NCBI GenBank assembly: GCA_013336165.1
Contig: JAAXUF010000006.1
Coordinates: 62,001-126,000, forward strand
Direction: 5' to 3'
Origin: Coriobacteriia bacterium
GTDB taxonomy: Bacteria; Actinomycetota; Coriobacteriia; Anaerosomatales; JAAXUF01
DNA length: 64,000 nt
Position 1 is the stretch's first letter. Every line of letters starts with the position of its first letter. Position numbers and translations under genes: made by a program. The notes under the pieces are model-generated. The model was not told the DNA's origin. It ran no database searches and saw nothing but the letters and a program-made list of their open reading frames with translations. Below are positions 2,337 through 6,818 of the stretch, piece after piece.

Positions 2337-3647
2337 TCAGCTTCCTTCCGCGCCAGTGATTGAGCTCCAGCTACGGCGGAGAATCGCGCCACGATCAGCT
2401 CGCAATCCTCGCAGCGCAGCAATCGTAGCCTGCGACACGTCTTGGTTGAACTCGCGTCCTTGCCCGCGGACCCCAGCCGCCGCCAGCAAAGCGACACGCC
2501 GTTCACTTTCGGCAATCCAAGATTCGAGATTCTCGAACGTGGCATCAAATGTATCTTTCGAACTAGCCGCCACCTGCAGCCTCAAGCAACTGAGGTAATG
2601 ACGGAACGCTTCGCTTTCGCTGAATTTGACTGCGCTAGGCTGAGGTGCAGTGAAGAGACGATCCACGCCTTCCTTAGGGTAGTCTCCCCCTGGACGGAGG
2701 AGCTCAAGTACGCTCCCTTTGGACGCAACGTCTAGATACGGGAGACCATACTCAGAAAGAGCCTCTGGACTGTAGAACCAAGTCTTCCGTTTACGGATTT
2801 CCTCTTCGTAGGCCGCCTGGAACTTCTCGGGTGGGAACGAACGTACATTCATCCAAGTCCCGGACGCGATTGCATCGGCACCTGCGCTCGCGAGGGCAAG
2901 CATCTGGTGTTGGCAGTAGCCCACCAACACATGCTTTCCGAGCAATCGGATGCCAGCCGTAAGGTCGAGTACATTTCCAAGCCACACCGGGTCGTCAACG
3001 AGGTACTGCCCGCCCGGATGCTGTACCACTAGGTAGATCCAGCCGACATCAATAGCCCGAATATGGGCCAAGACCTCGTCGACGACTTCGTTGCTCATTA
3101 CAGTAGAATCGGAGAGCGCGATGGTAAGCATGGTGTTCTGGCCGAGGATGCCAAGCGAGTCTGCTTCTTGGACAAGGATCTCCTGCTGGCCGATCCAACG
3201 GTCAATCTCAGAAGGAGAGTCCGCGAGGATCCCCGGTAGAATGACACGACCACAGCCAATACGATTCTGCAGCGATGCGAGCCGACCTAGCAGTGTCCGC
3301 CACTCGGCAGGGTTCAGAACATGAGACTCCTCGAACTCGCTTGGCCAGTAGTCGTGCGACTGCAGGCGGGCGTGGTCGGCGTGTGGCAAATAGAACTGAG
3401 GGTCTAGAAGCGGCTGTCCGCCTATGCTGCACACATCCGAGGCAAGCTGAGTCAGCTGCGCATCAGTCATGTCGCGCGGGCTCAGCACAACGGTTCCCCC
3501 GCCCCAAGCCTCAATAAGCGACCGAGTATGCGCCATCATCCCGTATCCGAACTGAAGCGCCAGTTCCATTGTCATCTCCGCCAGTCTCAACCGGTTCCGC
3601 GTCGTGTTCCTGAAGATCTGAAGACTCGCATGGACATACAAGTCCAC
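2337..3647 (-). CDS. TIM-barrel-like protein of unknown function in defence-like operon
   Basis: This is the last gene of the minus-strand operon. Its GTG start shares one base with the kinase stop (TAGTG), so the two are translationally coupled. The 436-residue chain looks like an alpha/beta barrel: recurring strand-helix units and loop motifs such as WGGGTVVLSPRDM (~50-62), QHPGGQYLVDDP (~210), GYCQHQMLALASAGADAIAS (~245-265) and TWMNVRSFPP. The C-terminal ~100 residues are helical. Glycine-rich turns after putative strands suggest an enzyme. It has some flavour of tRNA-guanine-transglycosylase-like barrels, but the DSGGFQ signature of that family is absent, so I assign no function. Pairing with a kinase and a nuclease suggests it modifies or senses a nucleotide or nucleic acid, which is speculative. 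Confidence 0.7.
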   Translation of the reverse strand: MDLYVHASLQIFRNTTRNRLRLAEMTMELALQFGYGMMAHTRSLIEAWGGGTVVLSPRDMTDAQLTQLASDVCSIGGQPLLDPQFYLPHADHARLQSHDYWPSEFEESHVLNPAEWRTLLGRLASLQNRIGCGRVILPGILADSPSEIDRWIGQQEILVQEADSLGILGQNTMLTIALSDSTVMSNEVVDEVLAHIRAIDVGWIYLVVQHPGGQYLVDDPVWLGNVLDLTAGIRLLGKHVLVGYCQHQMLALASAGADAIASGTWMNVRSFPPEKFQAAYEEEIRKRKTWFYSPEALSEYGLPYLDVASKGSVLELLRPGGDYPKEGVDRLFTAPQPSAVKFSESEAFRHYLSCLRLQVAASSKDTFDATFENLESWIAESERRVALLAAAGVRGQGREFNQDVSQATIAALRGLRADRGAILRRSWSSITGAEGS

Positions 3648-4507
3648 TAGTCTGTCTCTCCTATTTCCCCTAGCGCTTCATTAACCCACTCTAGCGCGTC
3701 CCTAGCCGACGGGGGTCTGTGGTTGGCTCTCGTTCGAGTAAGCGCCTCAACAAGATCTACGAATAGAGATGGAACTGCCGCACTCGCCGGCAGACGATCC
3801 AACTGCTGGTTCTCCACCCTTCTAAGGATCTCATCCATCGACGAAGCGCCGTGGGTATACGGGTTCATACCTGTAATGCATTCGAACACGGTAGTCCCGA
3901 GCGCGAATAGATCCGCCCTAGTGTCGATTTCGCTCTTCACATTATTGAATTGTTCTACAGGCGCGTAGCCTGGGGTGAACAAACCAAAGCGGCTAGAAGT
4001 TGCGGTGAGCGAACCCATATCCAAGAAACGGGCGATCCCGAAATCGAGAAGCCACGCCTGCCCCTCAGGGTCGATGATGATGTTCTCGGGCTTGATGTCC
4101 CGATGCACAACAGGAATTCGCTCTGCCTTGACGAGCACATCGAGAATATCGCGGGTCATCGCCATCGTTTGAAGACCCGACAGTGGCCCCCCAGCAAGAC
4201 ACTCTCTGAGGTTCTTCCCAGCGATTTGTTGCTCCACAATGTAGATCACATCGCCAGTCGGAGAGGGGACGGACGCTGCTTCAATGATCCTGGGGACGCG
4301 TGCATCGACGCCCAGGGCATCTGGAGCACGAACCTCACGCAGCACCCGCTCCCGGTCCGCGCGCCCCGGATGGAAGAGCTTCAGAACGGTGGGTGCACCA
4401 TTCGCGTCAAGGCAGCGAAAGACAGCTTTCTGACCCCCGCCTGGTAATTCGCGGAAATCATGGTATTTCCCAAACGTATGCTCGATCCATGCACTGTCGA
4501 AAGCCAC
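3647..4507 (-). CDS. Hanks-type serine/threonine protein kinase, soluble
   Basis: This 286-residue protein is a single kinase domain with no transmembrane or PASTA segment. A degenerate glycine-rich loop (PGGGQKAVF, ~22-30), catalytic Lys (VLKLF, ~43), HRDIKPEN catalytic loop (~138), DFG metal motif (LLDFGIA) and an APE-like segment (YAPVEQ) are all present, so it should be active. The start is GTG 4507, which leaves 28 bases after the nuclease gene. The longer frame to 4606 would overlap that gene and adds a non-homologous-looking head. Stand-alone kinases of this kind occur in phage-defence operons (Stk2 and BREX-like contexts, established knowledge). Position between a nuclease and a barrel protein suggests the kinase gates a defence response. 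Substrates cannot be read from sequence. Confidence 0.9.
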   Translation of the reverse strand: MAFDSAWIEHTFGKYHDFRELPGGGQKAVFRCLDANGAPTVLKLFHPGRADRERVLREVRAPDALGVDARVPRIIEAASVPSPTGDVIYIVEQQIAGKNLRECLAGGPLSGLQTMAMTRDILDVLVKAERIPVVHRDIKPENIIIDPEGQAWLLDFGIARFLDMGSLTATSSRFGLFTPGYAPVEQFNNVKSEIDTRADLFALGTTVFECITGMNPYTHGASSMDEILRRVENQQLDRLPASAAVPSLFVDLVEALTRTRANHRPPSARDALEWVNEALGEIGETD

Positions 4508-4535
4508 GATCCCCCCACGTGAATACTCTCGGAGA

Positions 4536-5572: not shown

Positions 5573-5599
5573 GTCAAATCGGTACGAATACGCAACGCC

Positions 5600-6403
5600 C
5601 TACTTGAAGGGCGGCGAGTAGATCCCTATGCACGAGAATTGCGTCGGGTGGGTGATGGTTGTGCCCACAAAGAGATGCACATTCCTCTTCTTCGGCCCCA
5701 TTTGTTCGTTGTACTTGTCGAGCACGTCGTTCTTCGCTTTTTCGGATCCCCACTTAGCTAACTGCCCTCGATACAACTCATACGGTTCCCAATCGAATAC
5801 CTGCAAATCATGCCCCGTGCAGTCAGGATTATCTGCGCATCTGAACTTGTATCTGAACGTCCAAGGCACTTTCTGCAACGGCTTCTTGGACGTCTCAAAC
5901 AGACTCTCCTGGTTCATAATGGCCAACTGTTTGTCGCTCCATGTCGCAGCATCAGATTGCAGGTAGAACTCTGCGTCGTCGGCAACTCGCACAAGCCCGA
6001 TCGACCCTTCGAACTTGTCCGCGCGCACCTGCAGATGCTCCATCGTGCTGGCCATGGGCAGTATGAGCTGGTCTCGCCGCACCCAGTCTGGCTTGTCCTT
6101 CTTGCCTCCTTTGTAGAAGGCATCCACGGTCTTGATGCTCTCGGACACAGGAGTATAGGTGTCCCGACGACAGTCCGCTGCTTTGTGTGTCACGTCAGCC
6201 TCGATGACATGCCACTTCTTGAACCACTGTGAGTATGGTAAGTCCCTGAATCTCACAGGGTAGAGACGCACGAACTGTTGGCGATCAACATCAACTCCGG
6301 CAGTACAGACGGTCTCCTCGTACCTGGTGCTTGGATTCGGATACGTCTTTACGGTGACGACGATGCGTCTACGCTCGCCCATAGCGAAGATGCCTAACTT
6401 CAT
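5600..6403 (-). CDS. Conserved hypothetical protein paired with DUF488, 267 aa
   Basis: A beta-rich soluble protein. Features: RRRIVVTVKTYPNPSTRYEE near the start, FVRLYPVRFRDLPYSQW and WHVIEADVTHK in the first 80 residues, and near the C-terminus CADNPDCTGHDL (a Cys/His cluster that could bind metal) followed by VHLFVGTTITHPTQF. The gene starts inside the 3' end of the DUF488 gene (ATG 6403, or ATG 6382 giving 260 aa), a coupling that indicates a joint role. Homologues of this type seem to accompany DUF488 proteins in accessory islands (recollection, not checked). The twin beta-barrel look suggests an OB-like nucleic-acid-binding fold. No catalytic residues are obvious. Confidence 0.65.
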   Translation of the reverse strand: MKLGIFAMGERRRIVVTVKTYPNPSTRYEETVCTAGVDVDRQQFVRLYPVRFRDLPYSQWFKKWHVIEADVTHKAADCRRDTYTPVSESIKTVDAFYKGGKKDKPDWVRRDQLILPMASTMEHLQVRADKFEGSIGLVRVADDAEFYLQSDAATWSDKQLAIMNQESLFETSKKPLQKVPWTFRYKFRCADNPDCTGHDLQVFDWEPYELYRGQLAKWGSEKAKNDVLDKYNEQMGPKKRNVHLFVGTTITHPTQFSCIGIYSPPFK

Positions 6404-6818
6404 AGCCCGGCAGAAGAGGAACGATCGATTCCGCGATGATGCTTCTGTGACAGGATGCAGGGTCCTCTTCGAAGCATACGAGACAGACTCGGCTGTCGGC
6501 AGCCAGCGATCTCAGTTGCTCCAGTGCATCCGGCCGATCCTTGAGACTCCGTTTGAACTCTACGGCGAATTCCTCGAATGCCCAGCCAGATTTGAGCCTC
6601 TCCCTCTGCGGTTTCGGATTGCCGAGGGCGCGAAGGTGTACGTACTCAATTCCGTTCGCCCGCAGTAACTCAGCGAGCCGGGACTTTGAGAAGCCTCTCT
6701 TTCTACTGATTGGCATCTCACGCACGTCTACCACCACTTGAATGCGCTGAACCCTGAGCCGTTCGACCCATTGCTCAACGGTGAATCCCTCATATCCGAT
6801 CGTGCATAGTGGCGTCAT
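6369..6818 (-). CDS. DUF488 family protein
   Basis: A 149-residue DUF488 domain. It opens with PLCTIGYEGFT, the family's strand-turn signature, then VVDVREMPISRKRGFSKSRL and ends with VCLVCFEEDPASCHRS, whose Cys and His residues are the conserved features of the family. The start is ATG 6818, preceded by GGGGGTGG. The longer open frame to 7034 would run into the tRNA-Ser repeat. DUF488 proteins are small and of unsettled biochemical role. They are often carried on mobile islands beside helicases or unknown partners (general knowledge). Here it is the first gene of the minus-strand operon that continues to the nuclease, kinase and barrel protein, and it begins about 210 bases downstream of tRNA-like repeat 1. 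Confidence 0.85.
   Translation of the reverse strand: MTPLCTIGYEGFTVEQWVERLRVQRIQVVVDVREMPISRKRGFSKSRLAELLRANGIEYVHLRALGNPKPQRERLKSGWAFEEFAVEFKRSLKDRPDALEQLRSLAADSRVCLVCFEEDPASCHRSIIAESIVPLLPGYEVRHLRYGRA

Follow-up and report, generated by a model that had tools for sequence, protein, structure and literature searches.

A candidate three-gene defence module that joins a predicted PD-(D/E)xK nuclease and Ser/Thr kinase to a transglycosylase-like TIM barrel

We analyzed a 64,000-nucleotide stretch (hereafter, the window) of the 2.0-Mb genome of a Coriobacteriia bacterium (GenBank assembly GCA_013336165.1; contig JAAXUF010000006.1, positions 62,001–126,000 of the forward strand), focusing on three adjacent genes for a nuclease (N), a kinase (K), and a barrel protein (B), and on the DUF488 gene pair upstream of them. 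Positions are those of the window unless a locus number precedes them. These five genes form two neighboring modules, the PDC-M19 pair and the three-gene N-K-B unit (Table 1). An earlier note on this DNA had instead described one tightly coupled operon of all five. The genes do lie on the minus strand where that note had placed them, and the DUF488 identity of the first was borne out by Pfam. The single operon is ruled out by the 353-nt gap between the stop of the DUF488 partner (5600) and the ATG of N (5246), by the separate PADLOC family of the pair, and by its absence from relatives: homologs of the DUF488 protein or its partner were found in none of the related N-K-B loci. Both components of PDC-M19 (M19A and M19B) are present at 5600–6818, directly upstream of N-K-B, and constitute a distinct module that is already cataloged in PADLOC and is missing beside all other N-K-B loci.

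Two of the gene overlaps invoked for the single operon were also lost when the gene boundaries were revised. The overlap at 5243/5246 rests on a doubtful open reading frame (ORF; 5243–5572, 109 aa), which was rejected as a gene because it has no family match and because N has its own ATG at 5246 with its own ribosome-binding site (AGGGGGA). The overlap at 3647 disappears because B most likely starts at the ATG at 3569, ~77 nt past the K stop; its first residues are MELALQFGYG, and the same start is kept among B homologs. K most likely starts at the GTG at 4507, which is preceded by GGGGGG and lies 28 nt past the N stop, rather than at the TTG at 4606, to which its open frame extends. A scan for promoters and terminators returned matches at chance level only.

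Table 1 Features of the N-K-B module and its immediate surroundings in the window
Feature	Position	Strand	Evidence
N: predicted PD-(D/E)xK nuclease, 236 aa, inserted winged helix-turn-helix (wHTH)	4536..5246	-	Residue conservation, AlphaFold2 (AF2) model, structural alignment
wHTH within N (residues 86–138)	4833..4991	-	Profile, Pfam matches in homologs, structural alignment
K: predicted soluble Hanks-type Ser/Thr kinase, ~286 aa, GTG start	3647..4507	-	Pkinase E 6.9e-22, invariant residues
B: TIM-barrel protein, 410 aa, predicted tRNA-guanine-transglycosylase-like fold	2337..3569	-	AF2 model, structural alignment
DUF488 protein (PDC-M19A)	6369..6818	-	PF04343 E 2.7e-30; PADLOC PDC-M19A E 4.4e-38
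DUF488 partner (PDC-M19B)	5600..6403	-	PADLOC PDC-M19B E 3.2e-52
AbiEi/AbiEii pair, neighboring defence/toxin-antitoxin (TA) system	7522..9056	-	AbiEii PF08843 E 6.1e-38; PADLOC AbiEi E 2.8e-68
Small Cro/C-protein-like helix-turn-helix (HTH) regulator, convergent with B	2080..2331	+	HTH_3 E 2.8e-17; PADLOC control protein E 4.8e-20

Scans of the window genes against Pfam, PADLOC, and NCBIfam assigned no family to 4536–5246 (N) or 2337–3647 (B), one marginal match aside. Sequence conservation and modeling predict that N is a PD-(D/E)xK nuclease whose active site is intact and which contains an inserted domain for DNA binding. Its AF2 model (pLDDT 93.5) has the core fold of the superfamily with the Asp...(D/E)xK site, and the winged helix (residues 86–138) is placed after the strand that follows D64 and before the one bearing E153-x-K155, in agreement with the nuclease fold and inserted winged helix proposed earlier. 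Seven residues (G27, E29, P63, D64, E153, K155, and Q165) are invariant in 56 homologs. The catalytic core was aligned structurally to SPO1766 (3dnx, Z 9.6), the type IIS restriction endonuclease (REase) PaqCI (Z 8.8), and NucS (Z 8.5), and residues 86–138 to Zalpha/MarR-like wHTH domains (Z ~9). The inserted domain was also recovered by the N profile (A6) among wHTH regulators in the PDB (E 1e-4) and by Pfam wHTH matches in many N homologs.

K is predicted to be a complete soluble Ser/Thr kinase. All the hallmarks of the Hanks type are present and invariant in 41 homologs, including the beta3 Lys (Lys56), the alphaC Glu (Glu71), the HRD motif (H148-R149-D150), the catalytic-loop Asn (N155), and the DFG motif (D168-F169-G170), so the active-looking soluble kinase of the earlier note stands as far as its residues can tell. 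The protein consists of the kinase domain alone and carries no separate sensor domain. For 41/41 K homologs, the PADLOC profiles PD-T4-6 and mad6 come nearest (window K: E 2.8e-39 and 7e-32, respectively); both belong to the same Hanks-type family. PD-T4-6 is a single-gene kinase defence, whereas K has N and B on either side wherever the locus is untruncated and thus does not stand alone. Similarly, MADS is a multi-gene set that includes a methylase besides the MAD6 kinase, and only K matches it (mad6); N, B, and the DUF488 pair had no MADS match in the PADLOC scan. Unlike PD-T4-6 and MADS components, the N and B of the window match no PADLOC profile.

The barrel-like protein of the earlier note proved to be modeled as an eight-stranded triosephosphate isomerase (TIM) barrel followed by C-terminal helices (pLDDT 93.9, pTM 0.94). 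In a structural alignment with VIA-align, the best 50 PDB entries were all tRNA-guanine transglycosylases (TGTs), the best being archaeosine TGT 1iq8 (Z 20.5 over 315 residues, rmsd 3.5, 9% identity), and the model has the TGT-type TIM-barrel arrangement over its whole length. D56, N241, and R243 are each conserved in 57/57 homologs, and E273, D280, and H324 are invariant as well. When B is mapped onto TGT by the order of its strands and their place in the chain rather than by superposing coordinates, D56 falls at the end of strand 3, in the place of the TGT general acid/base in DSGGFQ. The TGT nucleophile position (end of strand 8; D267 in the TGT of the host) corresponds to A235/S236 in B and is never acidic, with Ala/Cys/Gly or Ser/Ala/Thr/Cys in 57/57 homologs. 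The Cys3His zinc site of the host TGT (C305, C307, C310, and H336), whose cysteines are invariant in the TGT alignment of the host order (A10), has no Cys triplet as counterpart in the corresponding region of the B alignment (A5). The absence of both the nucleophilic Asp and the zinc site makes ordinary base exchange unlikely, and we infer that B retains a ligand pocket from which the classic exchange reaction is not expected. The B family lies outside Pfam, PADLOC, and NCBIfam.

The TGT-like fold brings to mind a restriction-modification (R-M)-like system, in which B would modify host DNA or tRNA bases in the manner of DpdA or TGT, N would restrict unmodified DNA, and K would regulate the process. 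There are precedents: DpdA-type TGTs occur in Dpd systems, which are R-M-like, and BREX-related capture systems contain a TGT (PMC12839542). B resembles TGT and DpdA in its barrel and in the Asp that is invariant where strand 3 ends; it differs from them in the missing strand-8 nucleophile and zinc site and in the lack of sequence similarity to TGT. In addition, genes for 7-deazaguanine synthesis, DpdB, or DpdC were not identified in the N-K-B neighborhoods examined. Together, these properties make such a role of B quite improbable.

To find relatives of the module, alignment A4 was used in the main scan against a genome collection of ~85,000 species. This one scan yielded 63 loci from at least 18 bacterial phyla. 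K adjoins B in all 63, and N is present in 61; in the other two (L030 and L049), the contig edge falls just before N, so that the remaining 61/61 carry N, K, and B side by side. This adjacency exceeds chance, and the co-conservation of the last three genes, which the earlier note had named as a check, is thus observed. Searches closer to the host gave the same picture: a single-sequence search with B matched 6/298 genomes of the class (the one with the window included), a B profile run against 396 genomes from the phylum added four further genomes besides that of the window, and K and N stood beside B in every one of them. The N-K-B order was also found on five viral contigs in the alignment search, with no match among viral contigs in the single-protein search. 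A tblastn search of plasmids and phages with the window B found no match, and the Ralstonia B as query led to a haloarchaeal plasmid of Natribaculum breve (CP095393) that carries N-K-B. On this plasmid, a metallophosphoesterase-like gene lies ~20 nt past N-K-B (L123:7132-7821; the whole stretch is L123:4354-7821) and is a possible phosphatase partner. Cultured bacteria with complete modules in assembled loci include Ralstonia sp. A12 (L045), Thioalkalivibrio denitrificans (L023), and Flagellimonas pelagia (L039).

A reciprocal search with N led back to these loci and added one genome (G057). Six of 13 genomes matched just the wHTH stretch and were rejected as cases of N without B because these are chance domain matches. 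In G057 (L122:6432-11052; contig C1, ~88.4–93.1 kb), the gene after N and K is strongly diverged and TIM-like, is not recognized by the B profile, and is itself followed by a reverse transcriptase whose best PADLOC match is RT-Protease_XI (retron-type). Replacement of the third gene at this locus would fit B as a sensor. The pairwise distance matrices of N, K, and B over 41 shared loci are correlated at 0.72–0.81, compared to permutation maxima below 0.19, and at least 18 phyla are intermixed in the B tree. N, K, and B are therefore inherited as one unit.

The inseparability of kinase and nuclease is also what would be seen if the kinase were a brake. Here, K would constitutively phosphorylate N or B and silence the nuclease, and phage interference (an inhibitor, a phosphatase, ATP loss, or host shut-off) would free N, much as in a guarded TA system. 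A kinase of ~286 aa that consists of its catalytic domain only agrees with this idea, as do the AbiE TA genes that are frequent neighbors of the module. However, a brake would need only two genes, which leaves the invariant third protein and its conserved TIM-barrel pocket without a role, and we consider this reading unlikely.

The genomic surroundings suggest a role in defence. In locus L017, the genes PglX, N, K, B, BrxHI/II, PglZ, and BrxA are encoded in this order on a single strand, with ends that overlap or abut (L017:1995-14747), and L038 repeats this arrangement, as assigned by homology to L017. The hosts are an Actinomycetota and a Deltaproteobacteria metagenome-assembled genome (MAG). 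Judged by gene content, N-K-B is thus inserted in the type 3-like bacteriophage exclusion (BREX) operon of two unrelated bacteria. Elsewhere, N begins directly downstream, at <100 nt, of the gene for HsdR (L035), HmaC (L061), a PLD-helicase (L050), a type II REase (L058), or AbiEii (L024, L027, and L062). A retron-type reverse transcriptase adjoins L122, and in L007 the module is cargo of an integrative and conjugative element (ICE) next to a type III R-M system that was identified from the sequence itself. Among 113 neighbors tallied with PADLOC are proteins of Hma, DUF499/DUF1156, BrxA/B, AbiE, and type II R-M, and DMS genes are also among the neighboring systems. Most N-K-B loci lie outside BREX. 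At the window, no PADLOC match to the BREX core (PglX, PglZ) is among the hits listed for the ten genes around the module. L024 and L027 share an AbiE pair followed by N-K-B with closely similar B proteins in Actinobacteria and Acidobacterium MAGs, which suggests transfer as one cassette or, otherwise, mis-binning.

Several components have described counterparts. In the literature searched, there are accounts of NERD-kinase fusions (PglW, DndF), of BREX nucleases that stand alone, and of TGTs that belong to Dpd or BREX-related capture systems (PMC12839542, PMC10853773). PglW of type 2 BREX, which combines a NERD nuclease, a pseudokinase, and a kinase, likewise joins a nuclease of the PD-(D/E)xK clan to a Ser/Thr kinase in defence (PMC12839542). 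PglW is one large multidomain protein, whereas N-K-B divides its parts among small individual proteins, with a wHTH located within the nuclease and a TIM barrel added as the third member, and, where nested, it resides in a PglX-BrxH-PglZ-BrxA (type 3-like) operon rather than in type 2 BREX. Auxiliary PD-(D/E)xK nucleases within BREX operons share the nesting seen in L017 and L038; in the accessible part of the same source, they are described as stand-alone or fused, without a triad of kinase and TGT-like protein (PMC12839542). Literature searches, with preprints and subscription papers excluded, returned no description of a triad of kinase, TGT/TIM protein, and nuclease. The folds are known, and the N-K-B combination and the B family appear to be new.

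N-K-B is mobile, given the integrases, ICE cargo, viral contigs, patchy distribution (B in 6/298 genomes of the class), and mixing of phyla on the tree. Tyrosine or serine recombinases flank several N-K-B loci. In the genome of the window, the end of a tyrosine integrase falls at window position 71, and before the integrase lies a protein of 785 aa that has an NrS-1 primase-polymerase domain; this region (window 1–71 and L124:10533-14071) is likely the left end of an integrative element that carries the island. A search for attachment-site repeats of at least 13 nt around this element found none. In four flavobacterial genera (L039–L042), 12.2 kb around the module are common at ~94% DNA identity, which suggests a recently transferred element. 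Two further genes lie on the B side of the module in the window: a coiled-coil-like protein with near-identical repeats (LLASQRRAAETLLANRR...) that belongs to no Pfam family (344–817), and a 257-aa protein that is predicted to be membrane-anchored and has no confident family, downstream of B on the same strand (1158–1931). The integrases, serine recombinases, and ICE genes found close to the module might mean that it is not a defence system but a stress-regulation unit, or else cargo that stabilizes mobile elements or competes among them through addiction or through incompatibility of plasmids or ICEs. Against this, unrelated bacteria have it inserted within or directly behind genes of BREX type 3, type I R-M, Hma, and DMS, a placement typical of defence modules, and we regard a role outside defence as improbable.

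Because the module is placed within or beside BREX, Hma, R-M, DMS, and AbiE genes, N-K-B very probably has a defence role of some kind, as the earlier note had proposed for its undescribed combination of a kinase, a PD-(D/E)xK nuclease, and a barrel protein; its expectation of a nuclease fold and a complete kinase agrees with the model of N and the sequence of K. How the three proteins would work together is more tentative. In the sensor-kinase-nuclease model, to which we give slightly less than an even chance, B would bind a ligand linked to infection, most likely a nucleobase, a nucleotide, or a modified base in nucleic acid; K would relay the state of B by phosphorylating N or B; and phosphorylation would license N to cut DNA, either that of the invader or that of the cell itself as a suicide response. 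In BREX, Hma, DMS, and type I or III R-M loci, the module may provide a second line of protection once modification-based immunity has failed or been inhibited. A more specific version, which we hold to be doubtful, is that B is a repurposed protein of transglycosylase fold that reads or removes a base (phage-modified, damaged, or a free 7-deazapurine) without exchange and signals via the kinase to the nuclease.

Several observations weigh against the sensor-kinase-nuclease model. In divergent loci, gene order and strand vary, with a change to K-B-N and with N convergent in L020, so that co-transcription in a fixed order is not essential. Many neighboring genes are unrelated to defence, such as those for AcrB (near L023) and PFOR (near L022). 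Foldseek alone ranks generic TIM barrels (PEP-binding, epimerase) first, at E ~1e-4 and low TM. Finally, hhalign comparison of B alignment A5 with the bacterial TGTs of the host order (A10) gave a probability of 0.5%, that is, no signal, and a Pfam TGT match is absent among the families listed for the 57 B members. The idea that B is a sequence relative of TGT was rejected on this basis; the pointer to TGT comes from structural alignment alone.

Base sensing tied to phosphorylation-controlled restriction, if the specific reading of B is true, would be a form of bacterial immune signaling of which we know no other case. An intact unit that spans at least 18 bacterial phyla and an archaeal plasmid, and that, apart from its kinase, is missing from Pfam, PADLOC, and NCBIfam, represents a substantial gap in the catalog of prokaryotic immunity, and annotation tools may label many such K kinases as solitary PD-T4-6. 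As a defence system, N-K-B would bring a protein family of transglycosylase-like fold into defence and would link kinase signaling to a nuclease in a compact, easily tested form. Its insertion in BREX and R-M operons suggests a back-up layer for modification-based immunity.

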